Position numbers and translations under genes: made by a program | Assembly (NCBI GenBank): GCA_012516165.1 | Contig: JAAYWY010000003.1 | Location: 1 to 34,561, forward strand | Source of the DNA: Bacillota bacterium | GTDB taxonomy: Bacteria > Bacillota > DTU030 > DUMP01 | DNA length: 34,561 bases | Direction of reading: 5' to 3' | Shown here: positions 1,641-34,561 of the stretch, in pieces | Numbering within the stretch: position 1 is the first letter of the stretch | How the letters are laid out: each line of letters begins with the position of its first letter | Notes under the pieces: generated by a model | What the model was told of the DNA's origin: nothing | The model's database searches: none | Seen by the model: the letters and a program-made list of their open reading frames with translations, nothing else

Positions 1641-2975
1641 TTATCCCAGTTGTTCTGTAATAACAGCGGCAATTTTGTCGGCCAAATCTTTAAGCAAGCC
1701 TTCTTCTTCGCCTTCGACCATGACTCGGATCACCGGTTCGGTCCCCGATGGGCGAACCAAGATACGTCCGCGGCCGTGCAGAGTTTGTTCTGCCTTGATG
1801 ATAGCTGCCTTGATCTGTTCGTTTTCTTGCCAACCGTCTTTGCTCTTTACTGGCACGTTGATCATAAGCTGGGGAAAATGCTTGACCACTGCTGCCAACT
1901 CGGATAGAGACTGCCTTTTTTCGGCCAAAACATTAAGTAGCTGCAAGGCAGTGCTCAGTCCGTCACCGGTGGTATTATAGTTTAGGTTAATAATATGCCC
2001 CGATTGCTCGCCGCCCAGGTTCCAGCCGCGCCGCTGAAGCTCTTCCAGAACATAGCGATCGCCCACTTGGGTGCGGATCAGCTCTAAGCCGTGTTCCCTT
2101 AGCGCCACTTCTAGTCCCATATTGCTCATGGATGTGGCCACCAGGCCGTTCCCCTTAAGCAGTCCCTTTTCTTTCTGCCATAGGGCCAAGATAGCCATAA
2201 TCTGATCGCCGTCCACCACTTGTCCCCTTTCGTCTACAGCCAGCAGGCGGTCGGCATCGCCGTCAAAAGCCAAGCCTAGGTCCGCCTTGACCTCCCGCAC
2301 AGCCTGCTGCAGTGCTTCTAAGTGGGTCGAGCCGCAGTGTACGTTAATATTCGTTCCAGTAGGGGCCGCATTGATAACTGTAACTTCGGCTTCCAGCCGC
2401 TTTAGTATCTCTGGTGCCACCTGGTAAGCAGCTCCATGAGCCGTATCCACCACTATATTAAAGCCGGATAGGTCTGCTCCTAGCTCTTCTTGCAGGTGTT
2501 TTAGATAAAGAGCAGCTGCGCCGGGCAAATCCCGTTTTTTGCCCACTTGAGCACCAGTAGGCCGCGGTAAGTTATGTTCTGTTAATAAAGTTTCAATTCG
2601 GTCTTCGATTTCATCGGGCAATTTATAGCCCTGGGCTGAAAAGAACTTAATGCCATTATCCTGAACAGGATTATGGGAAGCAGAAATCATGACACCGGCA
2701 TCGGCGCCTAGGACCAAGGTAAGATAAGCCACCGCCGGTGTTGGCAAAACCCCACAGCTAAGGACATCGCCCCCTACAGATAAGATGCCAGCAATAAGAG
2801 CTGCTTCCAGCATATCCCCTGATTGGCGTGTATCTTTTCCTACTACTAATTGTGGTCTTTGCTTGCCATTGGTTAATACATAAGCCCCTGCCCGCCCCAA
2901 GGCAAAAGCCAGCTCGGGGGTGAGATCAAGATTAGCTACTCCTCGTACACCATCTGTTCCAAATAAACGCCCCAA
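1641..2975 (-). CDS. glmM: Phosphoglucosamine mutase; apparent TTG start preceded by AGGAGG
   Basis: MGRLFGTDGVRGVAN start, catalytic ISASHNPVQDNGIKFF, DGDADR metal loop, RPSGTEPVIRVM phosphate-binding motif. Confidence 0.95.
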   Translation of the reverse strand: MGRLFGTDGVRGVANLDLTPELAFALGRAGAYVLTNGKQRPQLVVGKDTRQSGDMLEAALIAGILSVGGDVLSCGVLPTPAVAYLTLVLGADAGVMISASHNPVQDNGIKFFSAQGYKLPDEIEDRIETLLTEHNLPRPTGAQVGKKRDLPGAAALYLKHLQEELGADLSGFNIVVDTAHGAAYQVAPEILKRLEAEVTVINAAPTGTNINVHCGSTHLEALQQAVREVKADLGLAFDGDADRLLAVDERGQVVDGDQIMAILALWQKEKGLLKGNGLVATSMSNMGLEVALREHGLELIRTQVGDRYVLEELQRRGWNLGGEQSGHIINLNYNTTGDGLSTALQLLNVLAEKRQSLSELAAVVKHFPQLMINVPVKSKDGWQENEQIKAAIIKAEQTLHGRGRILVRPSGTEPVIRVMVEGEEEGLLKDLADKIAAVITEQLG

Positions 2976-3091
2976 CGTGCGTCCTCCTTTTAGTTAAAGC
3001 TTTATATACCATATCTTTATATTCTTTTCGGCAGTTGTCAACATGTGCTTTGCCGGAAATTTGGGTTTTGTTTTTTGACCGAATATTATTA

Positions 3092-16637: not shown

Positions 16638-18413
16638 TTAATCCGATTGGGAGCTGACCGCCGGTAATGTAAATGTAAATGTAGTACCTTGCCCCAACTC
16701 ACTGCTTACGCTGATCTCGCCCCCGTGAGCTTCCACCAAACCTTTAACTATAGCCAGACCAATACCGGTGCCCGCACTGGAGCGGGTTCGGGCTTTTTCT
16801 GTTTTGTAAAACCGCTCAAAAACATAAGGCAAATCTGCCGGTGCAATGCCACTACCGGTATCACGCACACTGACCATTATCTGATCATTATTTCTTACCT
16901 GAACATCTATGGTAATGCTTCCTCCCGGCGAAGTGTAGCGCAAAGCGTTGTTTATAAGATTAATTAAGATTTGCTGCAACCGGTCGGGATTACCCCATAC
17001 CAGCGGCACATCTTCTGGTCCGGAAACCATAAGTTGTACCCCTTTGTCCGTAGCTAGCGGGGAAAGCTTTTGCTGCACTTCTTTTATAACCTGGTTTATT
17101 GCCACGCACTCTTTTTCCAACACCAGTTGCCCGGCTTCGATCCGAGCTAAATCCAGCAGATCGTTTACCAAGCGCCTTAAGCGCAAGGTTTCATCGAGAA
17201 TAATCCGCAGATATTTCTCTTCCTCTTCCCGGCTGGCCGACAAGCCGTCCAAAATCGCCTCGGTATAGCCCTGCAGGTAAGTGAGCGGTGTCCTAAGCTC
17301 GTGGGACACATTAGCCACAAATTCGCGGCGCATGTCTTCTAACCGGCGTTCCCGTGTCATATCCAATAATACGCACACCACTGCCCGTACACTGCCTTCT
17401 TCTTTGATAGGAGCTAGGCGAGCAGCTAACACCCGTTCCGGAAGCCTAATCTCTGTGCTTTGAGCTTCCCCGGTAACTACCACCTGTTTAAACAGGTCCT
17501 CCAGGCCAGGCAATATTATATCTTCTCCCAGGTGCTGCCCCACAGCCAAATCGGTTACCGTTGCCAAATACTCGGCTGCTGGCGGATTATAAACCAGCAG
17601 TTCTCCAGCGGCGGAAAAGGTAAGTACACCATCGGTCATGCCAGCCAAAATCTCTGCCAGCTGATCCCGCTCTGCCCCTAGAGCAGCTACTGTGCGGGCC
17701 AGCTCAGCCGCCAGATGGTTTAGCGCTGATCCTAGGCGGCCCACTTCGTCTTGGCTATGCACTTCGACCCGCGGCGAAAAATCTCCCGCCGCCATGGTCT
17801 GGGCTGCCTGTTCCATACGGATAAGGGGACGAGAAAGACGGTGGGAGAGAAAGAAAGCAATCACCGTAGCCACAGCCATGGTACCTAAAATACCGTACAA
17901 AATAAGTCGGCGCACAGAGGCAATGGTACGAGTAATAGGAGCCAGCGGCGTATACAAATACACGGCTCCCACCACCTGATCGCTGGTTTTTATTGGCACG
18001 GCCACCGTTAGCATGGTAGTGTCCAACCCCGTACGATAGCCCTTGATGACCACCGTTTGGCCCGATAATACCGCCGCGGCTTGCGGCGGTGTCAGGGTTT
18101 GAGCACCACCACGAAAGCGGCGGTGATGCTGCATCCCCGGACTAACGCTGGAGATAAGTCCGCTTTTGTCCATAATGACCACATTGGCATTGAGAAAGTC
18201 CTCCACCAACGCCAGCTCCTGCAAAAGTTCCGCATTGCTGGAGGACGAAAGTACCAGCTTACCCAGGTTCTGCCCCTGGGCAATAAGGTTATCGGCCTGC
18301 AGATTAAAATAGAAATTGTCAAATAGCTGGGACAAAAACAAACCCAGTAGTAGCAAAATCAGCCCTACAGTAACTACCAATGTCAACCAAAGCCGTCCCA
18401 CAATACCCTTCAC
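16638..18413 (-). CDS. Sensor histidine kinase (HAMP-PAS-HisKA-HATPase, ResE/PhoR-like)
   Basis: Two TM segments, HAMP, FVANVSHELRTPLTYLQGYTEAI H-box, NPDRLQQILINLINNALRYT, DTGSGIAPADLPYVFERFYK, GTGIGLAIVKGLVEAHGG. Confidence 0.95.
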   Translation of the reverse strand: MKGIVGRLWLTLVVTVGLILLLLGLFLSQLFDNFYFNLQADNLIAQGQNLGKLVLSSSSNAELLQELALVEDFLNANVVIMDKSGLISSVSPGMQHHRRFRGGAQTLTPPQAAAVLSGQTVVIKGYRTGLDTTMLTVAVPIKTSDQVVGAVYLYTPLAPITRTIASVRRLILYGILGTMAVATVIAFFLSHRLSRPLIRMEQAAQTMAAGDFSPRVEVHSQDEVGRLGSALNHLAAELARTVAALGAERDQLAEILAGMTDGVLTFSAAGELLVYNPPAAEYLATVTDLAVGQHLGEDIILPGLEDLFKQVVVTGEAQSTEIRLPERVLAARLAPIKEEGSVRAVVCVLLDMTRERRLEDMRREFVANVSHELRTPLTYLQGYTEAILDGLSASREEEEKYLRIILDETLRLRRLVNDLLDLARIEAGQLVLEKECVAINQVIKEVQQKLSPLATDKGVQLMVSGPEDVPLVWGNPDRLQQILINLINNALRYTSPGGSITIDVQVRNNDQIMVSVRDTGSGIAPADLPYVFERFYKTEKARTRSSAGTGIGLAIVKGLVEAHGGEISVSSELGQGTTFTFTLPAVSSQSD

Positions 18414-18414
18414 A

Positions 18415-19122
18415 CTACTTCACCTCAAACTTATAGCCCACTCCCCAAACTGTAACTAAATATTGGGCCCCTTGACCGGCTTTTTTGAGCTTTTCTCGTA
18501 GATTTTTAATGTGGGTATCCACAGTTCTAAGATCACCATAAAAATCATAACCCCACACCCGCTCCAGCAGCTGCTCACGAGTGAAAACACGTCCCTCCTG
18601 CAAAGCTAAAAAATACAAAAGATCGTATTCTTTAGGAGTCAGCGCTACTTCAGTACCATTTGCTTCCACCCGCCGGGCTGGATGGTCAATACAGAGGCCG
18701 GGAAACTCCAATCTTTCTTCTTTTTCTGCCACCTCCGGACAAACTCGCCGGAGCAAGGCCTTAATGCGCATGACCAGTTCCCGGGGGCTAAAGGGTTTTA
18801 CCACATAATCGTCGGCTCCCAGCTCAAACCCTGTTACCCGGTCGATCTCCTCACCGCGAGCCGTAAGCATAATTATGGGCACATCGCGTTTTTGCCGCAT
18901 CCGCTGGCATACCGTCCAACCATCTATCTCCGGTAACATCACATCCAGCAGCACCAAAGTAAACTCCTCCTGGGCAAATTTGTCCAGCGCTGTGCGCCCA
19001 TCGGCCGCCTCCACCACCTGGTAACCTTCCCGCTCTAGGTACAATCTTAATAAATCCCGCATCCGCTGCTCGTCTTCCACCACTAAAATCTTTGTACATG
19101 TGGCCATAACCATCGCTCCCAT
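18415..19122 (-). CDS. OmpR/PhoB-family response regulator (ResD-like)
   Basis: KILVVEDEQRMRDLL, LLDVMLPEIDGW, GADDYVVKPFSPREL receiver; winged-helix VALTPKEYDLLYFLALQEGRVFTREQLLERVWGYDF. Confidence 0.95.
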   Translation of the reverse strand: MGAMVMATCTKILVVEDEQRMRDLLRLYLEREGYQVVEAADGRTALDKFAQEEFTLVLLDVMLPEIDGWTVCQRMRQKRDVPIIMLTARGEEIDRVTGFELGADDYVVKPFSPRELVMRIKALLRRVCPEVAEKEERLEFPGLCIDHPARRVEANGTEVALTPKEYDLLYFLALQEGRVFTREQLLERVWGYDFYGDLRTVDTHIKNLREKLKKAGQGAQYLVTVWGVGYKFEVK

Positions 19123-19318
19123 TACGATATCTTATCTTTTTCCTATCTTTCCGCGTCAGGACCACATTATCCTGCTTCTATGGCCTAAAAGCTCCACGTG
19201 AACCAACAGCCGAGCAGAGGGTACCTCTGGCGGCCGTAATATTATCCCGCTTCTGGCTGTCGTAAATAAAGCCACTCCTTTCGAGAGGATTCTTCCTTTT
19301 GCTAAGAGAATTATGTAG

Positions 19319-19336
19319 CCAAGACCCGAATCTTGG
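19319..19336 (+). promoter_or_regulatory. Perfect hairpin immediately upstream of the jetA RBS
   Basis: CCAAGA-cccgaa-TCTTGG, then tGAGGTGGAGct-ATG. Confidence 0.4.
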
Positions 19337-19348
19337 TGAGGTGGAGCT

Positions 19349-20863
19349 ATGTCTGAATCATACCTAAAACCCATTACTGAAGTAAGCTATCTTACAGCCC
19401 AAAACGTGAGCCGTTACCGCCTTATTATGCGCTATTTCTATGAAGAGCACCAGCGTATGCGTCAGTGGCTGCGCCCAGAAGACGTCTTGGCTAGCGTTGA
19501 AGCCACTGGTCTATTTCCTGATTACACCTTAGAGCTTTGTCAACAAGATCTTGATCAATTGGTGGCTTGGAAAGATCTTATTCCGCGCCACGATGGTGGC
19601 CGATCGGCCAGTGTGGAAGAATATTTGCGGAAAAAATTCAAGTACCAGCTTACCCCCTATGCCATCGAAATCGAGCGTTTAGTAGACCGCCTGCAAGATA
19701 TTCGTGGTTACGGCGGATCTTTAGAACCATCGGTGTTAGATAATATTTTAGCTGTGCTGCAACAATTAGAGAATACGTTCCAGTTTCCCCCAGGAAAAGC
19801 CCTAGAGTTGTGGGATAAGCTTTATGACCAGTTTCAAAAGCTTGTTAACAATTCAGCCTCTTATTTAGCCGCCTTAAGCAGCGCTCGCGCCGAAGAGCTC
19901 ATGCAAACCGAAGCCTTTCTAGCTTTTAAAGACTCCCTCACCATTTATTTGCAGAATTTTGTTCATGGTCTACAGCGCACCGGTGTGCGGATTCAAGGCC
20001 TGTTGGCTCATATGCCGCCTGAGGCCTTAACCGCTTTTTGGGTCGCTGTGGTAGAAGATAAAAAGCAGCGTCCCACCTTAGACGAGCAGCTGCCGCCAGA
20101 AGAAGAGCTGCAGCAGCTACAGGAAAAATGGCAGGATCTAAGACGTTGGTTTATCGGTACCGCCCATGAGGAAAGCGATGTGGTTTTTCTGGAACAGGCT
20201 ACCAAGGACACCATTGCCCGCGTAGTACGCTCGGCCCTTCGGATTCAAGACCGCCAACGTTCCGGGGTCAGCCGAAGACGGGAGTTGGACTATCTGGGGC
20301 AGTGGTTCTTCGCTTGCCCCAATATTGATACCGCTCATCGCTTAGCCGCTTGCGCTTTCGGATTGTACCGTACGCGCCATTTTCAAGGCTACGACGACAA
20401 GGATTCCGACAATCCAGACGTTTCTATGTGGAATGTGGCACCCAATATCCGGGAACTAAAGTCGCGCAGCCGCCAACGCACCCAACCGGGAGGACCCGAA
20501 CCTATATACTCTCGCCGCAAGTTAGCAGCCAAAGCCCGCCACGAGTACCTGCAACACCATGCGCAAGAACAAGCCCTCCTACAAAACTTTCTAGACCAAA
20601 AACAAGTCACCCTCTCCCATCTTCCACCTTTGGCACCGCCGGTGAGGCAAAGGCTGCTCACATGGATCGGACAGTGCCTGGTTAATCCTGTGCACCGCAT
20701 ATTAACCCCGGAAGGGATAAGCATAACTTTGTCTTTTCCTCCTGACAGTGAACGAACCGTGCTCACGGCGTCCGACGGCAATCTAGAATTACCCAATTTT
20801 ACCCTGAGGTTCACGGCCAAAAACCAAGTCCTGTTATCAGCCAAAGTAGGTGATGAACCATGA
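19349..20863 (+). CDS. jetA: Wadjet JetA-like protein (TIGR02677/DUF2397 family, kleisin role)
   Basis: 504 aa; first gene of the diagnostic four-gene TIGR02677-02680 neighbourhood; YLTAQNVSRYRLIMRYFYEEHQRMRQWL..., RRRELDYLGQWF. Confidence 0.87.
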   Translation: MSESYLKPITEVSYLTAQNVSRYRLIMRYFYEEHQRMRQWLRPEDVLASVEATGLFPDYTLELCQQDLDQLVAWKDLIPRHDGGRSASVEEYLRKKFKYQLTPYAIEIERLVDRLQDIRGYGGSLEPSVLDNILAVLQQLENTFQFPPGKALELWDKLYDQFQKLVNNSASYLAALSSARAEELMQTEAFLAFKDSLTIYLQNFVHGLQRTGVRIQGLLAHMPPEALTAFWVAVVEDKKQRPTLDEQLPPEEELQQLQEKWQDLRRWFIGTAHEESDVVFLEQATKDTIARVVRSALRIQDRQRSGVSRRRELDYLGQWFFACPNIDTAHRLAACAFGLYRTRHFQGYDDKDSDNPDVSMWNVAPNIRELKSRSRQRTQPGGPEPIYSRRKLAAKARHEYLQHHAQEQALLQNFLDQKQVTLSHLPPLAPPVRQRLLTWIGQCLVNPVHRILTPEGISITLSFPPDSERTVLTASDGNLELPNFTLRFTAKNQVLLSAKVGDEP

Positions 20864-22056
20864 GCCAGGCAGAACGATTTCGCGAACAAAAGCAAGCCTG
20901 TGTCCAGGCTCTGCTTAATCGCTACTTTGTAGACAAAGCCTCCGATCCAGAGCTATTTCAATCCATTCGCTACCATTATCAGGAGCTGCGAGAATGGTTC
21001 CAGGAACAATGCGGCTTTACCCTCCTTTTGACCCGACAGTTCGCCAAACTAGAGAAAATCCCCGGTAAAGCCCAACCATGGATGGGTTGGGACACATTTT
21101 TGGAGCCACGCGATTACGGGCTTTTTACTTATTGCCTGTGGTATTTGGAAGGCAAAGGCGAAAACGAACAATTTCTGCTGACTGACATGGTGGAAGCCAT
21201 TAGGCAGCATTTGTTGGGATTAGGCGTAGAAATGGACTGGACTTTATATGACCATCGTCGCTCTATGGCCCGAGCACTAAAACAACTAAAAAACATGGGC
21301 GTGCTGATAGCTGTAGACGGCGATGAATGGGAATGGGCGCAGCTGGGTGCCGAACGAAATGTTTTGTACGAAAGCTCCGACTATGCCCGTTATGTCCTGC
21401 GCCGATTCCCTCAAGATTTGTGCCAATACACCACAATCGAAGAGCTGGGGACCACCTTTTACGCTCCAACCCCAGAAGGAGAACTTAAGGCCCGACGGCA
21501 TCATATTTTTCGCCGTCTGCTGCAGGAACCGATAGTCTACGACTGGGAGTGGTCCGACGAAGAACACTACTACGTCCTAACCCAACGGCGCTACCTACTC
21601 CAACAGCTAGAAGAAATGGCTGGCTTAGTAGGCCAGCGCTATAAGGAAGGTTTGTTGTTCTTTTATCCTGAAGCCAGTGGAGAAATGGAACTGTTTCCCA
21701 CTGCTCAGGCCGTCTCCGATATTGTCCAAACCTTGGCAGCCGAAATTCGGTGTTTGACAACAGAAAGTAAAAACAGTCCATCTACCAATAACCAAGGCTG
21801 TTTACTGCTATCCACAATAGATTTTGAAGGTTTACTCCTTAAGCTACGGGAACAATATGGCATCTACTGGTCCAAAAAGCACCGGCAGGCTACCACTTCC
21901 CAGCTGGCTGAGGAAGTAATTGGGCATCTGGAAGAATGGGGTCTAGGCCATAAGGAAGCTGACGGGACCATTTATCTTCAACCGGCTTTAGCCCGTTTCA
22001 GCGGCAACTATGGCGACATAATCCAAACGGCTATCCGACCATCCAAGGAGGACTGA
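20860..22056 (+). CDS. jetB: Wadjet JetB-like protein (TIGR02678/DUF2398 family, KITE role)
   Basis: 398 aa; ATGA overlap with jetA; RRYLLQQLEEMAGLVGQRYKEGLLFFYPE and position in the cassette. Confidence 0.85.
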   Translation: MSQAERFREQKQACVQALLNRYFVDKASDPELFQSIRYHYQELREWFQEQCGFTLLLTRQFAKLEKIPGKAQPWMGWDTFLEPRDYGLFTYCLWYLEGKGENEQFLLTDMVEAIRQHLLGLGVEMDWTLYDHRRSMARALKQLKNMGVLIAVDGDEWEWAQLGAERNVLYESSDYARYVLRRFPQDLCQYTTIEELGTTFYAPTPEGELKARRHHIFRRLLQEPIVYDWEWSDEEHYYVLTQRRYLLQQLEEMAGLVGQRYKEGLLFFYPEASGEMELFPTAQAVSDIVQTLAAEIRCLTTESKNSPSTNNQGCLLLSTIDFEGLLLKLREQYGIYWSKKHRQATTSQLAEEVIGHLEEWGLGHKEADGTIYLQPALARFSGNYGDIIQTAIRPSKED

Positions 22057-22058
22057 AC

Positions 22059-25000
22059 ATGAACACCCGCTGGCACCTTAACCGCGCTGGTATTATAAAT
22101 TTTTGGCTCTATGATGAAGCTGAATTCATATTTTCGTCTGGTCGGCTTATTTTACGTGGAGCCAACGGTTCCGGCAAATCTGTCACTATGCAAAGCCTGA
22201 TCCCTTTGGTATTAGACGGCGATAAACGCCCGTGGCGTTTGGATCCCTTTGGCTCCCGGGATCGCCGGATAGAATACTATCTATTAGGTGAAGCTGACAG
22301 CAACATCTTTGACCGCACCGGTTATCTTTATCTGGAGTTTGCTCAACCAGAAGAAGAGCGTTACCTCACCATTGGCATTGGGCTCCGCGCCCGGCGTAGT
22401 TCACCCGTGAATTTTTGGGGTTTTGCCATCACCGACAATCGCCGGATAGGCCCGGATCTGCTTTTGTACCAACGCGATTTTAGCCAGAGCCAAGAAGCCC
22501 ACATTCCTTTGACTCGTGCCCAGCTGGAAGAGGTTATCGGGGCTGGCGGCTGGGTTGTAGCAGAACAAGGCGAGTATAAAAGACGAGTAAATAAAGTGCT
22601 CTTTGGCTACCAAGACCTGCAGTCTTATCAAGAATTGCTCGATCTTTTAATCCAGATCCGCAGTCCTAAACTGTCCAAGGACTTCAAGCCTTCCACTATT
22701 TATGAGATCCTAACTTCGGCCCTGCCTCCACTACAAGAGGACGATTTGCGGCCGCTCTCTGAAGTATTGGCCGACATGAACGAAATCGGCGATCGCCTGC
22801 AGGAACTTATCGTTCATCGGCAGGAAGTAGAGCAGCTCAATAAAGCCTACAACCAATACAACCAGTATCAGCTCTTCACCACCTCACGGGCCCTTCTAAC
22901 CCAAAGCCAGGACCTGTCTTCGCGTCAGAGCGAAGAAGCAGGGCTAAATCAGGAAATCAAAACCCTCAAGCAGGAACTTACTGAACATGACTCTGCCTTA
23001 CAGCAATTGGAAGAAGAACGCTTAAAAACCCAGACCCAGTACGATACCCTCAGTAGTAGCGAAGCTCTGGCCAAAGAACAAGAACTGGAGCGTCTACACA
23101 ACGAACAAAAATTAGCTGACGAGACACTTGCTCTTTACCGAGACCGAGTTGTCCACGGTGAACAAAGCCAGCTGGAAGCCCGCGAACAAGAAAAACGCCT
23201 AACCCAAGAGATCACTGTCAACGAAAATCAGCAACGAGAGCTACTACAGCAAATGATTCAAACAGCAACCGACAGTAATTTTACCTTGCACGAAGCGTAC
23301 AACCTTCTCTGGGAAGAACAAATCCCCGCTGATGACAGCTTGTGGTCACCCTGGCACCAAGAAATTGTCACTCATGAAACCAAGTTGGACAAGGCTTTAT
23401 CTTTGGCTCGTCAGGAAACCCAGCTGAAAGAACAAACTGCCGCCGCTGAACGCGAAGTAAGCGCCGCTCGCCACAGGCGGGACCTAGCCGAAGCGGAATT
23501 TCGCACCAAAGAACAGGCTGTAGACAAAGCCTACCAAGATTTACAAGAAGAAATCTTCAGCTGGCGAAAAGATCTACAAGAGCTTCTTTTCCCCGATGAA
23601 TCCTTAAGAGAAATCCTTCATCAGCTAAGCCTTTTTCCTGATACGCCCTACAGCGACCTCCAAGCAATAGTAAGAGACCAGCAACACTTGGCTATCCGCA
23701 AGTTAGCTAAGATCCGGGCTGATATAGAAACTGAGCAAAAACATCATCAGACGGAAAAAGAAGAACTGCAGCGCCAGCTAAAGGAATGGGAGCAAAAAAA
23801 AGAACCCGAACCACCACGGTCCCCTGCCAGAGAAACCGCCCGCCAAAGGCGCCTGGCCCAGGGTGAAACCGGAATCCCACTGTACGCTGCTTGCGATTTT
23901 CACCCGACTGTTCCGGAAAACATAAGAGCTGCTCTGGAGTCAGCCTTGGAGGAAGCTGGTCTACTGGATGCCTGGATCAGCGGTAATAAGATGGCTGTAT
24001 TGCAGCCAGGCGAAGAGGAAGTCTGGATACAAGCCGATCCCCACCTGCTCACCCCTACCCTAGCCGATTATCTAGTGCCCACACCGCCAAGCGGCAGCGG
24101 ATGCACCGCCGATGAAGTTGATCTTTTGCTGCGCACCATTCAAGTAAAAAACACCCCAGCCGCAACCAGCGGTAGCTATATTGCCACCGATGGCCGCTTT
24201 CAGCTGGGCTGTCTACTCGGTCAAGCAGCGGTAAAACCACAAGCTCAATATATCGGTAAGGAAAGCCGCCGCCGGACACGCGAAGCCGAAATAGCACGGC
24301 TCAAGGAACTTATCGCCCTTGAAGACGAAGCTTTGTCCGCCGGAGCAGCTAAACTGGAAGCCCTAACCGCAAAGGAAGCTCGGTTAGAGGCAGAAACCCA
24401 CGCTTTCCCCGATGGCAAAGCCTTAATAGAAGCCCACCGCCAACTGCAAAGCCAACAGATGATTGTCGACAATACTCGCCAAGAAGTGGAGCGAAAACAC
24501 GAGCACCACAAAGCAATAGCTGCCCAATTATTTGAAGCCAGCACTAAGTTTCATCAATTTATGGGTCAGTGGACCATTGCCCATAGCGAAGCTGCCGTGG
24601 AACAGGCATGGCGCCAGCTCAGGTATTACAAAGATCAATTTAGCCAGCTACACAATCTGTGGGAAAGATGGCGCGGCCTAGCAAATAACAAAAAACAAAT
24701 CCATAACCAACGAATAGCCACCGAAAAACGGCTAGCCCAGGACTTGGCCGAACAGACCCGCTGGCAACAGCGACGACTAGAAATCGAATCTAAGATTGCA
24801 GCATTAAAAACGTTATTACAAGAGATGGGTATCTACGATCTCCATAATAAACTGTTACAACTAAAAGACGAGGAGGCTCGCCTCCAAGCCGAAATCAAAC
24901 GCCGGGAAAAAATGCAGCGCCAAGCAGAAAACAAGCTCGCAGCCAAGGAAACAGAGCTTCGCTTTGTAGCCAACCAAACTGCCGAAGCACTGAACCGCTG

Positions 25001-26117
25001 GAAAGAAAAATTTCAGCAGTGGCAGCTAGAATGGGACCGCCGCCTACTGCCAGAATGGTCCGATACTAAGCTGGAGGCGGCTCAGCCCGCCGTGGTAGAT
25101 AAACTATGCCGGTTAATAGTCCAGCATTATCCGCGAATGGAAAATCAAACAGCAGAAAACATTACTAACCGTCTCCACGATGAATTCTATTCAATTCGCC
25201 AATCCCTTCTGCCCTATGTCCCCGAATTAGATTCCGACCCAGTGAGCGGTCGACGCCTAATAATCTTTAACCGCGACCGACACAATCCCCTTACTCCCGC
25301 CTTATTGCTGCAGGAACTTACAACGGCAGAAGAAGAACAACGCCTGCTTCTTAGCCACAAGGACCGAGAATTATACGAAGAAATCCTCATTCATAGCGTA
25401 GGGCGTGCCATAAAACAAAAAATTGCCCGCGCCGAGCATTGGGTAGCTGAAATGAACCACCTAATGCAAGCTCGAGAAACATCCAGCGGCCTAAAATTGT
25501 TTTTGCGCTGGGAACCACTGGCCGCCTCCACCGAGGATGAGCTGGACACTGAACAGTTAGTTCAGCTTCTGCGGACCGACCCTCATCTTTTGCGGGACGA
25601 TCAGATTGACCGTATGGTAAAACATTTTCGAACTAGGATCAAACGAGCCGAAACCGAAGCCGAAGCTGGAGAAACATTGCGCGATTGGATAGCCAAGCTG
25701 CTCGATTACCGGCTGTGGTTCCGTTTTACTTTACACTACAGTAAGGCGGATCAATCGCGGCGCGAACTCACCGATTCCCGTTTCAATGTCCTCTCCGGAG
25801 GCGAAAAAGCCATGGCCATGTATATACCGCTATTGGCCGCCGTCTGTTCACGTTATAGCGATGCCGACTCAGCAGCCCCTCGTATCGTTTCGTTGGACGA
25901 AGCATTTGCCGGGGTAGATGAAGAAAACCTCAGGGATATGTTTGAACTTTTAACCCAAATGGACCTAGATTACATTATGACCAGTCAAAACCTGTGGGGC
26001 TGCTATGACACCGTACCGGCCCTAGCTATTTATGAACTGTACCGCCCCAAAGATGCCGCCTGCGTATCCCAGATTCATTATATCTGGAACGGTAAGCAGC
26101 GCAGCATGATAGCGTAA
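22059..26117 (+). CDS. jetC: Wadjet JetC-like SMC/SbcC-type ATPase (TIGR02680 family)
   Basis: 1352 aa; Walker A GANGSGKSVTM, long Glu/Lys/Gln-rich coiled coils, LSGGEKAM signature, RIVSLDEAFAGVDEEN Walker B; AAGGAGGA RBS. Confidence 0.93.
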   Translation: MNTRWHLNRAGIINFWLYDEAEFIFSSGRLILRGANGSGKSVTMQSLIPLVLDGDKRPWRLDPFGSRDRRIEYYLLGEADSNIFDRTGYLYLEFAQPEEERYLTIGIGLRARRSSPVNFWGFAITDNRRIGPDLLLYQRDFSQSQEAHIPLTRAQLEEVIGAGGWVVAEQGEYKRRVNKVLFGYQDLQSYQELLDLLIQIRSPKLSKDFKPSTIYEILTSALPPLQEDDLRPLSEVLADMNEIGDRLQELIVHRQEVEQLNKAYNQYNQYQLFTTSRALLTQSQDLSSRQSEEAGLNQEIKTLKQELTEHDSALQQLEEERLKTQTQYDTLSSSEALAKEQELERLHNEQKLADETLALYRDRVVHGEQSQLEAREQEKRLTQEITVNENQQRELLQQMIQTATDSNFTLHEAYNLLWEEQIPADDSLWSPWHQEIVTHETKLDKALSLARQETQLKEQTAAAEREVSAARHRRDLAEAEFRTKEQAVDKAYQDLQEEIFSWRKDLQELLFPDESLREILHQLSLFPDTPYSDLQAIVRDQQHLAIRKLAKIRADIETEQKHHQTEKEELQRQLKEWEQKKEPEPPRSPARETARQRRLAQGETGIPLYAACDFHPTVPENIRAALESALEEAGLLDAWISGNKMAVLQPGEEEVWIQADPHLLTPTLADYLVPTPPSGSGCTADEVDLLLRTIQVKNTPAATSGSYIATDGRFQLGCLLGQAAVKPQAQYIGKESRRRTREAEIARLKELIALEDEALSAGAAKLEALTAKEARLEAETHAFPDGKALIEAHRQLQSQQMIVDNTRQEVERKHEHHKAIAAQLFEASTKFHQFMGQWTIAHSEAAVEQAWRQLRYYKDQFSQLHNLWERWRGLANNKKQIHNQRIATEKRLAQDLAEQTRWQQRRLEIESKIAALKTLLQEMGIYDLHNKLLQLKDEEARLQAEIKRREKMQRQAENKLAAKETELRFVANQTAEALNRWKEKFQQWQLEWDRRLLPEWSDTKLEAAQPAVVDKLCRLIVQHYPRMENQTAENITNRLHDEFYSIRQSLLPYVPELDSDPVSGRRLIIFNRDRHNPLTPALLLQELTTAEEEQRLLLSHKDRELYEEILIHSVGRAIKQKIARAEHWVAEMNHLMQARETSSGLKLFLRWEPLAASTEDELDTEQLVQLLRTDPHLLRDDQIDRMVKHFRTRIKRAETEAEAGETLRDWIAKLLDYRLWFRFTLHYSKADQSRRELTDSRFNVLSGGEKAMAMYIPLLAAVCSRYSDADSAAPRIVSLDEAFAGVDEENLRDMFELLTQMDLDYIMTSQNLWGCYDTVPALAIYELYRPKDAACVSQIHYIWNGKQRSMIA

Positions 26118-26185
26118 AAGCCATCGGATTGATAACCTTGATGCCATCGGTACCATGTAAACAGTGCAGTATGATAGCGTAAAAG
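26092..26185 (+). repeat. Imperfect direct repeat of the jetC 3' end (29 bp, 65-bp period)
   Basis: gtaaGcagCgcagCatgatagcgtaaaag (26092-26120) vs gtaaAcagTgcagTatgatagcgtaaaag (26157-26185); 26/29 identical. Confidence 0.85.
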
Positions 26186-26411
26186 AGCGCTGTGGAAGTA
26201 TCAAAGGGACGGCAGACAGTGTGAATACCCAGGTTAAGATTGTCATCCTGCCTGTCCAGCCTGCCCAGAGCGGAGGTGCCCCTACCCATGCACTGTAAGT
26301 TACCATAGGAACAGGTCTTCTTTGTAAATGCAAGAAAACAATACCCTAGTGTTCAAAGAGTATAAGGCTACAGGGCACTTCTCGCAGCAGCGCATTATGA
26401 CCTAAACCAAC

Positions 26412-26429
26412 TCTCTACACCCCTAGAGA
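26412..26429 (+). promoter_or_regulatory. Hairpin in jetC-jetD spacer
   Basis: TCTCTA-caccccc-region loop-TAGAGA perfect 6-bp stem (26412-26417 / 26424-26429), ~38 nt upstream of jetD ATG. Confidence 0.4.
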
Positions 26430-26466
26430 ACGCCCTGGGACTTGTAATGAGAATTAAGGAGTGCTT

Positions 26467-27732
26467 ATGAACAAGCTGGAAGAATATCTAGCCCAGCCGG
26501 GGCTAAAACGGCTGTGGCCAAAGGTAAAAACAAAATACCAATCCTTGGATCGGATCGGCGGCAAAGTCAAGTTGCGTCAACTATCTTCTTTGGAACAAGA
26601 AGCCTTGGGTGGGCTCTTGGCCAAGAATTTGCTGGGCCAAGAAGAATGTACAGTGGAGCTGGCAGCCTTGGATCAGGCCCTGAAGCGTAGCCGGTTTGGA
26701 GCCGGATTAGTCGAAGCGCTGGAGTGTCTGTACGGACCAACGCTGCTGACCAAAAAAGAACAAGCCCAATTAGCGGAAAAAGAATGGCTGGCCTTTTTTG
26801 CTGCCTTAGAGCAAACCCCACAGAAACCGCAGACTAAAAGCTGGCTAACCGCATTAAAGAATAAACAAGGGCGCGGTTATCGGGCCTTTATCACCCTTTA
26901 CCACCAGGATCAAAACCAAGCTCGCAATATCCTGCATACCTCGTTACACGCCTTGGACCGACTTCCTTGTTGGCAAAGAAAGCGTACGCGACTGCCGGTT
27001 TTTGCTGCCGAACTTACTGGTGACCCCCACGCCTTGGACAGCAATACCGCACTGGGACGCCTTTTCTTCCAAGGCCTGCTTTTCGTCCGGGGAATTAATA
27101 AAGACGTAACTTCCGCTGAAAAACAGCGGGAAATCTTGTCAGAAGCAGGGCTCGAGGGCGATGACATTTCTTCTGCTGTTATCGTAGCCGGTCTTCGTAC
27201 TCTACCCTCCGATCCCAGAGCTGGTATTTTTAGCGCTAGTTTATCTAGTTGTACCCCACTTGTTTTGCCACTTAGGTTTTTTGATCAGCTCACCTCGTGG
27301 ACATCGATGCCAACAATATATGTAATGGAAAACCCTACGGTCTTTAGTGCTATTTTAGATGCCAACGATAATTCCCCGCCGCCACCCTTGGTTTGCACTA
27401 GCGGCCAGCCCAGCGTAGCCGCTTTAAGATTGTTAGACGAATTAGCTGCTGCCGGTGGTACTCTCTATTATAGCGGTGACTTCGACCCCGAAGGATTGCA
27501 AATAGGCCTCCGTCTGCACGAACGCTACAGCAGCTCATTTTATCCTTGGTTTTTCGACCGACAAGCCTATACTACCGCCCCAGCTGGCACACCTCTTACC
27601 CTGGACCAAAGACAGACTTTGTCTAACTTGATAACACCCTGGGATAAAATGCTACCAGCTGCAATCTTAAAACGAGGCACTGTGGTGTATCAGGAAAGCT
27701 TAGTAGAAGAAATGATCGCCAGCTTTAGCTGA
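26467..27732 (+). CDS. jetD: Wadjet JetD-like Toprim nuclease subunit (TIGR02679/DUF2399; ATG 26467 favoured by AAGGAG upstream; ORF track starts at GTG 26461)
   Basis: Toprim-like motifs IYVMENPTVFSAILD and LYYSGDFDPEGLQIGLRL; fourth gene of the cassette. Confidence 0.87.
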   Translation: MNKLEEYLAQPGLKRLWPKVKTKYQSLDRIGGKVKLRQLSSLEQEALGGLLAKNLLGQEECTVELAALDQALKRSRFGAGLVEALECLYGPTLLTKKEQAQLAEKEWLAFFAALEQTPQKPQTKSWLTALKNKQGRGYRAFITLYHQDQNQARNILHTSLHALDRLPCWQRKRTRLPVFAAELTGDPHALDSNTALGRLFFQGLLFVRGINKDVTSAEKQREILSEAGLEGDDISSAVIVAGLRTLPSDPRAGIFSASLSSCTPLVLPLRFFDQLTSWTSMPTIYVMENPTVFSAILDANDNSPPPPLVCTSGQPSVAALRLLDELAAAGGTLYYSGDFDPEGLQIGLRLHERYSSSFYPWFFDRQAYTTAPAGTPLTLDQRQTLSNLITPWDKMLPAAILKRGTVVYQESLVEEMIASFS

Positions 27733-28447
27733 TATAATTTCCCTTTGCTTCTGCTTCTACTGGTATATCAAGAAGTATTGCTGTTTTGGTCACCACACAA
27801 CGATATGCGAATACTTCTACTCCTGCTGCCTGGGCCTCGTAAAGAGCATGGCTAAAATCGGGGTCCATTTTAGTGTGAGGCCGGAACAGCACTGCATCCT
27901 GGCGCTGAATAATAAAAATCACTGCCGCCCGCGCACCTTGGCCCACCAACTCTGTTAATTCTCTTAGTTGACGCGTACCTCTTGATGTGGGGGCATCGGG
28001 GAACAAGGCTACACCATCTTCTACCAGAGTACAACCTTTTACCTCTATATAGCAGTCTGGTTTATTTTTGCCCTGGAGCAAAAAATCAAAGCGACTGTGC
28101 TTGTACCTGGGTTCAGCCTTCACACTATCATAGCCTGTAAATGGTGGCCAAAACCCCGACTCCAAAGCCAACTTGGCCAACCGATTAGGTACACCGCTGT
28201 CTACCGATACCAAGCCCTCTGGCCCATCCACTAGCTTTAGATCAAAGGCTGTTTTCCTGTTTGGATTAGCGGCGGCCGATACATATACTTTTGCTCCGGG
28301 AAAAAGCAGTTCCTTTAGTCTTCCCGGATCAGCCACATGAGCTAAAAGCTCTTTTCCCTCCACATCCACCTGCGCCAAAAACCGATTGGGACGGGCAATA
28401 AGCTGCCCCCTCTTGAGCGGTGGTAAAGTAATACCAATGGAAGTCAT
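27725..28447 (-). CDS. sfsA: Sugar fermentation stimulation protein SfsA family
   Basis: ARPNRFLAQVDVEGKELLAHVADPGRLKELLFPGAKVYV, HSRFDFLL, DCYIEVKGCTLVEDGVALFPDAPTSRGTRQLREL. Confidence 0.93.
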   Translation of the reverse strand: MTSIGITLPPLKRGQLIARPNRFLAQVDVEGKELLAHVADPGRLKELLFPGAKVYVSAAANPNRKTAFDLKLVDGPEGLVSVDSGVPNRLAKLALESGFWPPFTGYDSVKAEPRYKHSRFDFLLQGKNKPDCYIEVKGCTLVEDGVALFPDAPTSRGTRQLRELTELVGQGARAAVIFIIQRQDAVLFRPHTKMDPDFSHALYEAQAAGVEVFAYRCVVTKTAILLDIPVEAEAKGNYIS

Positions 28448-28527
28448 TTATGCACACCCACTTTTATTAGTAAACCATGCTTCTTTTATACACAGGATGT
28501 AAAACAAAAGCAACCCCAAAAGAAAAA

Positions 28528-28564: not shown

Positions 28565-29548
28565 TCACTTACGTCTTTTATCCCAGGCTTCTTTATTTAA
28601 AATATTGGGTGGGATTTGTCCTTTTAGTGCCGCCACCACATTTTCGGCTGCCATGGTAGCCATGCGGGTACGAGTAGCAATGCTGGCGCTGGCGATATGA
28701 GGAACTATGGTAACATTGTCTAGCTTTAATAACGGGTTATCGGCCTTTGGCGGTTCCGGGTCCATAACATCGAGGCCTGCAGCAGCAATCTGACCGCTCT
28801 TTAGGGCATTGTATAATGCAGCTTCATCCACAATAGGGCCACGGGCAGTATTGACCAATACAGCTGTAGGCTTCATTTTGCTAAAAGCCTCAGCATTAAA
28901 AAGGTGCCGTGTATCCGGTGTTAGAGGTACATGGATGCTAATAAAATCGGATTGGCTGAGTAATTCGTCGAAAGAAACGTACTCTACCCCTAGTTCTTTT
29001 TCCATCTCCTCGTTGCGGGGAACACTATAATATAGAACCTTCATGTTAAAACCCTGGGCCCGTCTGGCTACTGCCGAACCAATACGCCCTAGCCCCACCA
29101 GGCCCAATGTTGCTCCATGGATATCCTGCCCGAGCAAAAGAGTGGGGCCCCAAGTTTTCCATTTCCCAGCCATCACGTATCTGTTAGCTTCAACTATCCG
29201 ACGCCCCGCAGCTAAGATAAGCGTAAAGGCTAAGTCAGCGGTGGTATCAGTTAAAACACCAGGGGTATTGGTCAGGAGAACCCCCCTCTGGGTAGCAGCA
29301 GATATATCCATGTTATCATAGCCTACAGCATAATTAGCCACTACCTTAAGCTTAGAAGCTTGATCCAGCAGCTCGCCATCGATTCGGTCTGTAAGGAGCG
29401 ATACCAAAGCATCGCAATCTTTTACCTCCCGAAGAAGAGTTTCGCGGGGCGGTGGTAACTCTTCAGGCCAAACTTTAACCTCAGCAAATTGACGCAACAA
29501 ATCTAGACCTGGTTCTGGAATCTGACGCGTTACAAAAACCTTCGGCAT
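28565..29548 (-). CDS. D-2-hydroxyacid dehydrogenase, glyoxylate/hydroxypyruvate reductase-like
   Basis: [20 protein letters not shown] Rossmann motif, [44 protein letters not shown] catalytic region. Confidence 0.92.
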
Positions 29549-29744
29549 GGTGCACTCTCCTTTACAAAATTAGAATGGTACCTTGGGATACCTAAAAGCT
29601 AAGGAATCCGCAACCAAAAAGCAGGAATAACAATCCTTTTAAGGGAATGTTATGGAGTAACCGCCAAACACATTTGGTTAGTTTTTTAGGCCAAAACCTA
29701 TCGGGCCATAACAACTATGTCGCACTTCAAGGAGGAATTTTGTT

Positions 29745-30896
29745 ATGCATATTATCATTGCACCAGACTCGTTCAAAGGTAGCCTTACTGCTATACAGGC
29801 AGCAAAAGCCATGGCCACTGGAGTAAGACACCTCTGGCCTCAAGCCAAGATAGAACTAATCCCTATGGCTGACGGTGGTGAAGGAACTGCAGAAGCCCTG
29901 GTCATGGCCACAGGGGGTACCCTGCAGCCTATTACCGTAACTGGCCCTTTAGGTGAACCTGTTCAGGCCAGTTTTGGCATCTTAGGAGATGGAAAAACAG
30001 CGGTTATAGAAATGGCGGCGGCGGCCGGCCTATATTTAGTTCCCGAAGAAAAGCGCAATCCCCTTGTCACCACCACCTACGGTGTAGGTGAGCTTATACT
30101 AGCAGCTTTAGCTGCTGGTTGTCAGCATTTGATAATAGGTATCGGCGGCAGTGCCACCAATGATGGTGGCGTGGGTATGGCCCAGGCTTTGGGAGGCAAG
30201 TTCCTCGATGCCAACGGGAAGGATATCGGCTGGGGTGGCGGCGCACTCGAGAATCTAGCCCATATTGACCTTACGGTCCTTGATCCCCGTTTGCAAGAAG
30301 TAACCGTTACCGTGGCCTGTGATGTAAACAATCCGCTTTGCGGTCCCCAAGGTGCAGCTGCTATTTATGGGCCCCAAAAAGGTGCTACGCCTGCCCTGGT
30401 AACAAAGCTGGACGAAAATTTAGCTCATTTGGCCCAAATTATAAAGCAAGATTTAGGAAAAGACATTATATCATTTCCTGGTGCTGGGGCTGCTGGCGGG
30501 CTGGGGGCTGGGCTCATGGCCTTTCTTGATGCTACCTTAATGCCCGGCATTGAAATTGTCATGAAAGCCGTTGGCTTACAAGAACGATTGCAAAAAGCCC
30601 ACCTGGTGCTCACCGGCGAAGGCAAAATCGACGCTCAAACCGCCTTCGGCAAAACCCTCTCCGGCATCGCCCAAGCAGCTAAAGCCCATTCCCTGCCGGT
30701 CATTGCTCTTGCTGGCGGCATTGGCGACGATGTAAAACCCGTTTATTCTTGCGGTATCGATGCCGTGTTCCCTCTCACGCCTTACCCCATATCCTTACCC
30801 GATGCCATGCGCCGTAGCGAAGAATTGCTTGTCTTGGCCACCGAACGGGCCCTACGTCTGGTTGGTGTGGGCCAACAACTCAGCAATTTTAAATAA
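29745..30896 (+). CDS. Glycerate 2-kinase (GarK/GlxK family)
   Basis: IIAPDSFKGSLTAIQAAKAMATGV, PMADGGEGTAEAL, GIGGSATNDGGVGMAQALG, GAAGGLGAGLMAFL, LTGEGKIDAQTAFGKTLSGIA; AAGGAGG RBS. Confidence 0.95.
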   Translation: MHIIIAPDSFKGSLTAIQAAKAMATGVRHLWPQAKIELIPMADGGEGTAEALVMATGGTLQPITVTGPLGEPVQASFGILGDGKTAVIEMAAAAGLYLVPEEKRNPLVTTTYGVGELILAALAAGCQHLIIGIGGSATNDGGVGMAQALGGKFLDANGKDIGWGGGALENLAHIDLTVLDPRLQEVTVTVACDVNNPLCGPQGAAAIYGPQKGATPALVTKLDENLAHLAQIIKQDLGKDIISFPGAGAAGGLGAGLMAFLDATLMPGIEIVMKAVGLQERLQKAHLVLTGEGKIDAQTAFGKTLSGIAQAAKAHSLPVIALAGGIGDDVKPVYSCGIDAVFPLTPYPISLPDAMRRSEELLVLATERALRLVGVGQQLSNFK

Positions 30897-30918
30897 ACCA
30901 AGTGGGTAATTAACTAAA

Positions 30919-30935
30919 GGGGGCGCCTGGCCCCC
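30919..30935 (-). terminator. Stem-loop between convergent glycerate kinase and DUF1537 genes
   Basis: GGGGGC-gcctg-GCCCCC; followed by TTTAGTTAATT on the minus strand. Confidence 0.6.
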
Positions 30936-30939
30936 GTCC

Positions 30940-32394
30940 TCATCCGTTTAATATTTCTACTGCATTGGCCAAATCCTGGTTAGAACCCACATTACCAGGA
31001 AACACAACATAAGGTAATCCGGGAAACCTTGTTTCTTGCCCAAGGCGGACGACAGGAACTCCGGGCAGCACTTGCCCAAGTACCGCCGCCTTTTTTATAC
31101 CCAATCCTTTCGTGGCCACATCGCTGGAAGTTATTCCGCCTTTGCCAATTATAAAGCGTGGGCGAACTTTTAGCGATTCTACCAACTTAGTCAAATACCT
31201 CGATATTTCATTGCTTATGAGAATATCTTCTTCGCTGCTCTTCCCACGTATTACTTCCCGACTTGTAGCCACAATAGCCACCTGGTTTGATCTTAACATT
31301 CGTTCAACTTCTAGACAAATTTCGTCTGCCAGTTCGGTCCCGTCCCCATTATGAAAATCTAGTATACGTTTAACATCTATCTCCAGTACTTTATAGCCTC
31401 GTTCTTTAAGAGCTATCAGCTGCTCATTAGTTCGTTGAACATGGGACCCCACTACAACTAAACCACCTGAGCCTTTTATTTCTTCCTTTTGATAAATGTC
31501 TTCGGCACCAAGAAGTGGCTTATCACCAATTCCGCCATAAACCTTGGGAAAAGAGGACGCTGTGCGGTATATAAAATGCTTTCCCGCCGCTTCAGCCCTT
31601 TGTAAACCTTGCACTACGATATCTAAATCACTGTAGCTGGCAGCATTGACGACAACCGGCTTACCACCGGAGACTTGTTCAAAATATTGTGCTACTATAC
31701 TGGGACCTTGGGAACGAATAGTCTCCAGCGATAACGACAATACCTCTTTGCTGCTCCAACGTCCTTCACTTTTTTCTTGTACCCATTCCTTTAAATCGGA
31801 ACTTCTGTATCCAAACACCGGGTCCTTGGCAAATTCAGTTTGCCCCGCCGGTACAAGTAGGTCGCCTTCTTGGACGTAGTGAACATCATCCACCGTAAAG
31901 CGTCCGCCTTCGGGAAAAGCAGGAACAATAACATGCCCATCAATTTTGCACCCATACGCTTTTTCCCATAGGTCCTGGATGACCAACACTTCCAGCGGAT
32001 AATGGCCTCGGAGAGTGGAATCACTTCTGCTGATGAATATTACCTCTCGATCAAGTTTTTGCCCCAGTTCCAGGATAGTCGATACTATTTTCGTGTTTAA
32101 TTGCCGTGCCCCTTGGGAAGTTAAACTACGAGAATTAGTGATCAGAAAAGCCAACGGCTCTTCTTCTAGCATCATATCGCTAAGAGTTGCATAATCCCAA
32201 GATGTGTAGACATTAATGCCATGTACCGTCTGGATGCCTGTAGGGTCATCGTCTAAAACAACAATTTTTCGCCCAGCTTGAAGAACAGTCTCTCTTATCG
32301 AGGCACGAAACCCCTGGGTATTAGGTTCAGGCGGCAACAGGTCTAATACGGATTGTGGGCTATATAGTCCTTTCACAGAATTCACATCCGTCAA
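30940..32394 (-). CDS. DUF1537 / four-carbon acid sugar kinase family protein
   Basis: IVVLDDDPTGIQTVHG, FISRSDSTLRGHYPLE, VPAFPEGGRFTVDDVHYV, GKGGITSSDVATKGLGIKKAAVLGQVLPGVPV. Confidence 0.92.
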   Translation of the reverse strand: MTDVNSVKGLYSPQSVLDLLPPEPNTQGFRASIRETVLQAGRKIVVLDDDPTGIQTVHGINVYTSWDYATLSDMMLEEEPLAFLITNSRSLTSQGARQLNTKIVSTILELGQKLDREVIFISRSDSTLRGHYPLEVLVIQDLWEKAYGCKIDGHVIVPAFPEGGRFTVDDVHYVQEGDLLVPAGQTEFAKDPVFGYRSSDLKEWVQEKSEGRWSSKEVLSLSLETIRSQGPSIVAQYFEQVSGGKPVVVNAASYSDLDIVVQGLQRAEAAGKHFIYRTASSFPKVYGGIGDKPLLGAEDIYQKEEIKGSGGLVVVGSHVQRTNEQLIALKERGYKVLEIDVKRILDFHNGDGTELADEICLEVERMLRSNQVAIVATSREVIRGKSSEEDILISNEISRYLTKLVESLKVRPRFIIGKGGITSSDVATKGLGIKKAAVLGQVLPGVPVVRLGQETRFPGLPYVVFPGNVGSNQDLANAVEILNG

Positions 32395-32482
32395 TTATTC
32401 TACTATATCCTTAATAAGTGGGAACACAGGCTGTCGCTTAATGTAACATCAATTTAATTTCACTCTAATATAGATAGTCCTC

Positions 32483-33640
32483 TTACTTCATGAGCGATGG
32501 TAACCAAAGGGATACCCCAGGCACATAGGTAACTAGAATGAGCACTACCAAAGCTACTACATAGAAGGGAGCAAGCTTTTTTACAACTTCCTCCATTTTA
32601 AGCTTGGCTAACGCACTGGCAACGAAAAGGCAAGTCCCCACTGGGGGAGTGTAGAGCCCAATGCCAAGATTAACAACCATCAAAGCACCAAAATGAATCG
32701 GATCCACTCCAACTTGTTTAGCAACAGGCAATAAAATAGGGGTAAGTATCATTACAGCAGGAGAAAGATCAATGATCATTCCTGTAAGTAATAATACCAA
32801 ATTCATCAACAATAAAACCCCGAACTTGCTAGTTGTGATTGATAGTATTAACTGGGCAACTTGTTCAGGCACACGTCCTAAAGCTATTAACCAGGCAAAA
32901 ATATTGGCAGCAGCAATTATAATCATAACCCCTGCCGTACTTATAACTGTGTTCTTTAACACCGTTGGAATCATTTTCCATTCTAAGTCATGATACACAA
33001 ATTTTCCAATAAGAAACGACCATACCACGGCAATTACTGCGGCTTCAGTAGGAGTTACAATTCCGGATAAAATACCACCAATAATTACCACTGGTGTGAG
33101 TAATGCTAAGATAGTGCTTTTGCCCGCTTCTAGTACCATGCTGAAAGATGCACGAGGCTCGCGCGGATAATTGTTTTTGCGAGAAATTACCGCACACAAT
33201 ATCATTAATGCTATACCTAACATCAAACCTGGTATTGCTCCTGCCAAAAGAAGCTTACCTATAGATTCATTAGCAAGCCACCCATATACTACCATGGGTA
33301 TGCTTGGAGGTATCAATATGCCTATGGTCCCAGATGCCGCAATGACAGCAGCAGCAAAAGCCTTATCATAGCCTCTTTCATCCATGGCATCTATTAAGAC
33401 TGTGCCAACAGCCGAACTATTGGCAACCGCTGATCCCGATACACCAGCAAAAAACATACTCACAAGTACTACTACCTGAGCTAAGCCGCCCCAGAGGTGC
33501 CCCACAAGGGTACTAGCAAACTTCAATAGCCGCTTAGACAACCCACCATGATTCATTAACTCCCCGGCTAGGATAAAAAAAGGAATAGCCGTCTCGATAA
33601 CACTTACTGCGTGTGACATTTTCTTTATCACTGATCTCAA
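32483..33640 (-). pseudogene. TRAP transporter large permease (DctM), N-terminally truncated
   Basis: AIPFFILAGELMNHGGLSKRLL, SMFFAGVSGSAVANSSAVG, GILIPPSIPMVVYGWLA, NLGIGLYTPPVGTCLFVASALAKL; only ~18 residues precede AIPFFILAG, with an in-frame stop upstream and no leading TM helix. Confidence 0.75.
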
Positions 33641-33677
33641 GCTATCAACCCCTATATCAGAAACTGTAATAGTTTAG

Positions 33678-33697
33678 GTGGGCCATTGCTGGCCCAC
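33678..33697 (-). terminator. Stem-loop between dctP remnant and dctM remnant
   Basis: GTGGGCCA-ttgc-TGGCCCAC perfect 8-bp stem. Confidence 0.65.
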
Positions 33698-33710
33698 GCA
33701 TATTCCGTAG

Positions 33711-34148
33711 CTACCTAGCTTCAGCAGCAGCATTTTTAAGTTTTTCTATTAGGTCACGCCCAAATGTATCTTCGAATTCTGCGTATACAGGTTCTACTGC
33801 CTTACGAAACGGCTCGATGTCTGGCACAGCGTTTATAATTACGCCTTCTTTTTCAAGCTCACTAACTAGCGCCTCATCGTCTTCTTTAATCAGTGAACGA
33901 TGGTAGTCTCTCGCCTCGTTTGCTGCTTCTTGGATAATATCCTGATATTCTTTAGGTAAAGTTTTCCAAAATTCCTCGCTGATTGCAAGCGGAAGAGGAC
34001 TATACTGGTGTTTTGTTTGTGATAGATATTTAAGACCTAGAACGCCCGCTTTAGAAGCCGAGTAGTGCGCACCACCAAAAATCCCGCCGCCTCGTTTAGC
34101 AGATACAGATGAGATGGCTACAATACGACCATATTTTTGTTCTACCAT
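33711..34148 (-). pseudogene. Chimeric ORF: SDR internal fragment fused in frame to C-terminal TRAP DctP fragment
   Basis: MVEQKYGRIVAISSVSAKRGGGIFGGAHYSASKAGVLGL (SDR Ser...YxxxK region) then KYLSQTKHQYSPLPLAISEEFWKTLPKEYQDIIQEAANEARDYHR... (DctP C-term). Junction near 34031/34032. Confidence 0.8.
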
Positions 34149-34157
34149 AAATAATAC

Positions 34158-34193
34158 GGCGGGAAATAGCCCACATCCTAGGCATTTCCCGCC
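34158..34193 (-). terminator. Terminator upstream of the SDR/DctP chimera
   Basis: GGCGGGAAAT ... ATTTCCCGCC 10-bp perfect stem (plus GCC/GGC inner pairing), followed by GTATTATTTAT on the minus strand. Confidence 0.75.
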
Positions 34194-34404
34194 CTATCTA
34201 TAGTGATGTCTGTTATTAGTCACTAAATTGTTGTACTTTATCGGCCACGGTACAATGTTTATACGCATCTTTTCTATAAGCAATGGTATATGAACTCCGC
34301 AAATTCCATAACCTGCTCCTTATCCTTGTCTGATAGCATCTTAGCTCAGCTATACTTTATTTAGTCCTGATAATATTATATCTTATTGCTGCAAAGTCCC
34401 TATC

Positions 34405-34561
34405 TTATTTCCCGCCGACGTTAACCCCAGTCGGTAGGGTCTTGAGCTCGCCTTCGGTGGCAGCAACTACCACGGCACCAGCCGCATCGCCCACCACGTT
34501 CATGGATGTACGGATCATGTCAAAGATTCGATCCACGCCAGCAATAAGAAGAATACCGTCC
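34405..34561 (-). CDS. Dicarboxylate/amino acid:cation symporter, C-terminal end (gene continues beyond window)
   Basis: Minus-strand translation from window edge: DGILLIAGVDRIFDMIRTSMNVVGDAAGAVVVAATEGELKTLPTGVNVGGK*, matching the DRxxDMxRTxxNVxGD motif of GltP/DctA-type symporters. Confidence 0.88.
   Translation of the reverse strand, partial: DGILLIAGVDRIFDMIRTSMNVVGDAAGAVVVAATEGELKTLPTGVNVGGK

Follow-up and report, generated by a model that had tools for sequence, protein, structure and literature searches.

For the locus described here, sequence searches found solved relatives only in PDB entries 9qe0 and 9qe1, namely their JetA, JetB and JetC chains; these entries most likely represent the Wadjet complex of type II from Neobacillus vireti (nvJET). 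We infer this link; the entry name 9QE0 is not mentioned in the Wadjet literature searched. Passages of PMC12647877 cite the structure of the N. vireti complex and state that it cuts naked circular DNA in vitro. A natural Bacillota operon whose effect on plasmid transfer has been tested is jetABCD of Clostridium cellulovorans: passages of PMC12287153 report that Wadjet prevents plasmid transfer into this host and present a jetABCD deletion strain, and its likeness to the present operon is one of description. Natural plasmid interference by jetABCD in M. smegmatis is cited in a passage of PMC10586767. The type I systems of E. coli GF4-3, P. aeruginosa PA14 and C. glutamicum (MksBEFG) share the same four-subunit logic with the operon studied here. 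Less work has been done on type II, which makes one more natural example, with a divergent JetD, mildly useful.

Here we describe a four-gene block on the plus strand, at positions 19349-27732 of the window, that is, of the whole 34,561-nucleotide stretch of DNA analysed. It is very probably an intact type II Wadjet operon of the chromosome that would restrict small circular plasmids through loop extrusion and JetD cleavage. The gene set, its full length, the motifs, the subtype, the JetD fold and the insertion were observed in this analysis. The operon is an ordinary example of a described system and leaves the understanding of Wadjet unchanged; its value is as a record of type II, intact, from a Bacillota lineage of which few relatives have been sequenced, and of a clean pair of filled and empty sites in related genera where the operon is a lone cassette and not part of a defence island.

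Gene content and subtype

The block consists of four intact, consecutive open reading frames without internal stops, in the contiguous order jetA-jetB-jetC-jetD. The first gene, jetA (19349-20863, +), encodes a type II kleisin subunit of 504 aa (DUF2397/TIGR02677) and overlaps by 4 nt with jetB (20860-22056, +), which encodes a type II KITE subunit of 398 aa (DUF2398/TIGR02678). After a gap of 2 nt comes jetC (22059-26117, +), for a type II SMC/MukB-like ATPase of 1352 aa (TIGR02680), and after a 343-nt spacer jetD (26461-27732, +), for a type II Toprim nuclease (DUF3323 and DUF2399/TIGR02679). Judging from the AAGGAG found 5 nt before ATG 26467, jetD likely starts at this codon rather than at GTG 26461. 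The histidine kinase and response regulator genes on the left and sfsA on the right all lie on the opposite strand, and the 3' ends of jetD and sfsA overlap by 8 nt. The earlier note had proposed a four-gene plus-strand island free of frameshifts and running against its neighbours, and the layout found here is the same. A start of jetD frameshifted within the spacer was considered and ruled out: the N-terminus of JetD is complete, since the profile matches begin at residue 31 (profile position 2) for NCBIfam and at residue 3 (position 5 of 430) for PADLOC.

The four proteins were compared with the NCBIfam, PADLOC and Pfam models. JetA matched TIGR02677 (E 4.8e-108), PADLOC JetA2 (E 8.6e-176, 583 bits) and Pfam PF09660 (DUF2397); JetB matched TIGR02678 (E 8.1e-71), JetB2 (E 3.4e-128, 426 bits) and DUF2398; JetC matched TIGR02680 (E 5.9e-271), JetC2 (E 0, 1446 bits) and SbcC_Walker_B; JetD matched TIGR02679 (E 9e-86), JetD2 (E 2.4e-118, 393.9 bits) and DUF3323 plus DUF2399. 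All four NCBIfam scores were far over the curated cut-offs and the matches spanned almost the entire profiles, which excludes a chance match. The set TIGR02677/02678/02680/02679, which the earlier note had read as a complete Wadjet system, is thus present with every model covered near full length, in PADLOC as in NCBIfam.

The subtype turned out to be a different one from the type III that had been thought probable. Every best PADLOC model was of subtype 2, with full-length scores, while the sole type III model matched was JetD3, whose 22.3 bits compare with 393.9 for JetD2, and type III was rejected. Type I was rejected as well: JetA1 and JetB1 had no match among the four open reading frames, JetD1 scored no higher than 39.5 bits and JetC1 no higher than 70.6 bits, where the type II JetC model scored 1446. 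By sequence, JetC matched the JetC chain 9qe0_A over residues 3-1351 (E 6.5e-206), and JetA and JetB matched 9qe0_E (E 8.8e-91) and 9qe0_D (E 1.1e-52) over their full length. Because the best PADLOC models are all of subtype 2 and the matches to 9qe0/9qe1 are full-length, we assign the operon by sequence comparison to Wadjet type II. The solved complex belongs to a different Bacillota lineage, and unlike its three partners the JetD of the window has no match in the PDB, either with the single sequence or with a profile.

JetC contains GANGSGKS, LSGGEKAM and SLDEAFAGVDEEN; its Walker A is at residue 34, its signature motif at 1245 and its Walker B at 1278, and the columns of these ATPase motifs are conserved in 67 JetC proteins. 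JetD contains MENPTVF and SGDFDPEGL. Its Toprim residues are conserved in 82 JetD proteins, and E290, N291, G339, D340, D342 and G345 are invariant in 49 relatives. Most of these loci were found with the motif 'YSGD[FL]D', whose conservation is therefore partly by construction, so that E290 and N291 are the sole independent evidence. As no PDB entry matched JetD by sequence or profile, we turned to a fold search. An AlphaFold2 model built from 49 relatives (mean pLDDT 95) was compared by Foldseek, and its only strong fold matches were topoisomerase VI subunit A (1d3y, 9o0g, 9o7o, 9o8p, 2zbk and 2q2e; E 4.9e-6 for 1d3y_B) and Spo11 (8urq and 8uru; E 4.8e-4 for 8urq_A). In line with this predicted fold, JetD has been described as CAP plus Toprim and as a relative of topoisomerase VI subunit A (PMC10586767). 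The motifs of JetC and JetD had already been judged intact or Toprim-like from the letters alone, a view that conservation and fold both bear out.

By analogy with the characterised complexes (PMC10586767 and passages of PMC12647877), JetA, JetB and JetC would form a dimer-of-dimers motor, in which the kleisin and KITE subunits accompany the SMC ATPase, and this motor would load on DNA and extrude loops. On a small circle, two motors would meet once the entire circle has been extruded, and the Toprim nuclease JetD would then be activated to cut the plasmid. Neither linear DNA nor the chromosome, which is very large, would be cut. That the present operon is expressed, that its products assemble, extrude loops and cleave DNA, and that it restricts plasmids would be expected on the same grounds.

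The intergenic region ahead of jetD

The non-coding stretch between jetC and jetD (26118-26460, +), which the earlier note had not mentioned, measures 343 nt to GTG 26461 and 349 nt to ATG 26467. The corresponding gap is at most 42 nt in 61 of 71 relatives and exceeds 100 nt in the other 10. The end of jetC carries a 29-nt sequence, GTAAGCAGCGCAGCATGATAGCGTAAAAG (26092-26120, +), of which a near-copy with 3 mismatches (26/29) lies 65 nt downstream, in the spacer (26157-26185, +); none is expected by chance. Further on, positions 26241-26275 hold a 35-nt fragment, TGTCATCCTGCCTGTCCAGCCTGCCCAGAGCGGAG, of a dispersed repeat that also occurs at many places in the window's own genome and in the same-family genomes G005 and G007. 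This non-coding repeat has the form TGTCATCCTG...CCAGAGCGGAGCGTAGGGAGCGAAGCG...GGATCT, within which short units stand in tandem. The spacer most likely grew through local duplication and repeat insertion. A structured RNA or a hidden gene was rejected: the spacer has no Rfam match and no open frame across it, and its RNA fold is no better than that of shuffled sequences (z = -0.12). A consensus scan for sigma-70-like promoters directly upstream of jetA or jetD found none.

The uncoupling of jetD from jetC by 343 nt could alter the supply of JetD, while jetD retains its own ribosome-binding site. This raises the alternative that the operon is impaired, the spacer lowering or uncoupling JetD expression and JetABC then serving as a condensin that organises DNA, with scarcely any nuclease activity left. 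Such a state would be in line with the unusual length of the spacer and its assembly from repeat fragments, with the splitting of jetC over two reading frames in a genome of the same family (G006:C7:7934-11897), possibly a decaying or mis-assembled copy, and with the proposal that MksBEF originated by loss of JetD (PMC10586767). We nevertheless consider it unlikely, given that jetD keeps its full length, all Toprim residues and an AAGGAG 5 nt before its ATG, that gaps above 100 nt are also found among the relatives, and that the spacer has no plus-strand terminator-like site. It is unlikely, too, that the repeat-derived spacer gives jetD an expression control of its own, by which the level of the nuclease would be set apart from that of the motor complex in this lineage. 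An intact operon with all four subunits is the preferred reading.

The site between the response regulator gene and sfsA

The junction between the two-component system and sfsA was compared in related genomes. On a single 7.5-kb contig of G005, a genome of the same family and another genus, the genes for the histidine kinase and the response regulator and sfsA have the same order and orientation as in the window; the last two are adjacent, with no jet genes between them. Bases 1-2373 of this contig (G005:C167, L034) align to positions 16808-19175 of the window and bases 2377-3087 to positions 27755-28464, with three bases in between. Relative to this empty site, the window contains 8,579 extra bases (19176-27754). 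Both edges carry the 9-nt direct repeat CTGCTTCTA, at 19172-19180 on the left and at 27751-27759, within the 3' end of sfsA, on the right; the 9-mer occurs exactly twice in the window, once per junction. Since two randomly drawn 61-nt stretches also had a word of at least 9 nt in common in 46 of 2981 trials, the pair is suggestive, and no proof, of a target-site duplication or of a microhomology join. The right edge lies within sfsA, the final codons of which differ from those of its relatives. The genome that contains the window is a draft assembly of 291 contigs. Insertion of the jet operon between the response regulator gene and sfsA, as proposed in the earlier note, is supported by the empty site and by the repeat at both edges.

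At the same junction, a third genome (G007:C124, L035 7400-7881) has about 480 nt without jet genes, an insert that resembles, by eye, a degraded acetyltransferase gene fragment. The spot therefore varies between genera, being empty in G005, filled with another small insert in G007 and occupied by the jet genes in the window. Neither an integrase nor a transposase was found in the window, and a tRNA as insertion site was rejected, the window having none. GC, GC3 and codon usage of the operon are those of its neighbours, with no compositional sign of foreign DNA. Beside the operon we found no other defence or mobility genes, the neighbours being housekeeping, signalling and transport genes, so that the term island given to the block holds in the sense of a lone operon and fails in the sense of a defence island.

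Distribution in related genomes

Of the 61 genomes searched, 6 have JetD, counting that of the window, and TIGR02680 is present in 5 of the 13 genomes of the class. Among the seven other genomes of the family, four lack the jet operon and one, mentioned above, has it split. The nearest JetD sequences are those of G004 (JASKKP010000028.1, Bacillota isolate DJKA57) and G001, with 60% and 58-59% identity to the JetD of the window. Both genomes are of the same family and their operons have the same gene order; they differ from that of the window by a jetC-jetD gap of 7-12 nt against 343 and by their location, 70-100 kb from sfsA and the kinase in G001 and on another contig in G004. In the JetD tree the window groups with these two (support 99/94); next to this clade come a Clostridia MAG and Thermincola, then Tumebacillus and Paenibacillaceae. 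JetD had no match in phage records, and 27 plasmid records carry distant relatives. These data fit an operon circulating among related lineages, or one that is old in the family and has undergone relocations and losses.

It is barely credible that the operon is a vertically inherited housekeeping condensin (MksBEF-like) serving chromosome segregation and not defence: the supported clade of same-family relatives, a base composition and codon usage like those of the neighbours and the lack of adjacent defence genes would suit such a role, but the operon is missing from four and split in one of the seven other genomes of the family and lies elsewhere in G001 and G004, its site is empty in G005 and holds something else in G007, and its fourth gene is a Toprim nuclease, absent from condensins.

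Beyond sfsA, the neighbourhood of the operon varies as well. At the end of the window (region 28565-34561) lies the 3' end of a transporter gene, whose match in G005 adjoins sfsA; in G007 a matching gene lies near sfsA, with only the glycerate kinase gene between. Because this transporter gene is at or near sfsA in both genomes, the 2-hydroxyacid dehydrogenase and TRAP genes in 28565-34561 are a second presence/absence difference in the neighbourhood. In the same region, a 145-aa open reading frame (33711-34148, -) matches the middle of a short-chain dehydrogenase with residues 1-40 and the C-terminus of a TRAP DctP solute-binding protein with residues 40-126; either a deletion has left it as a fused remnant, or it is an assembly join close to the end of the contig.
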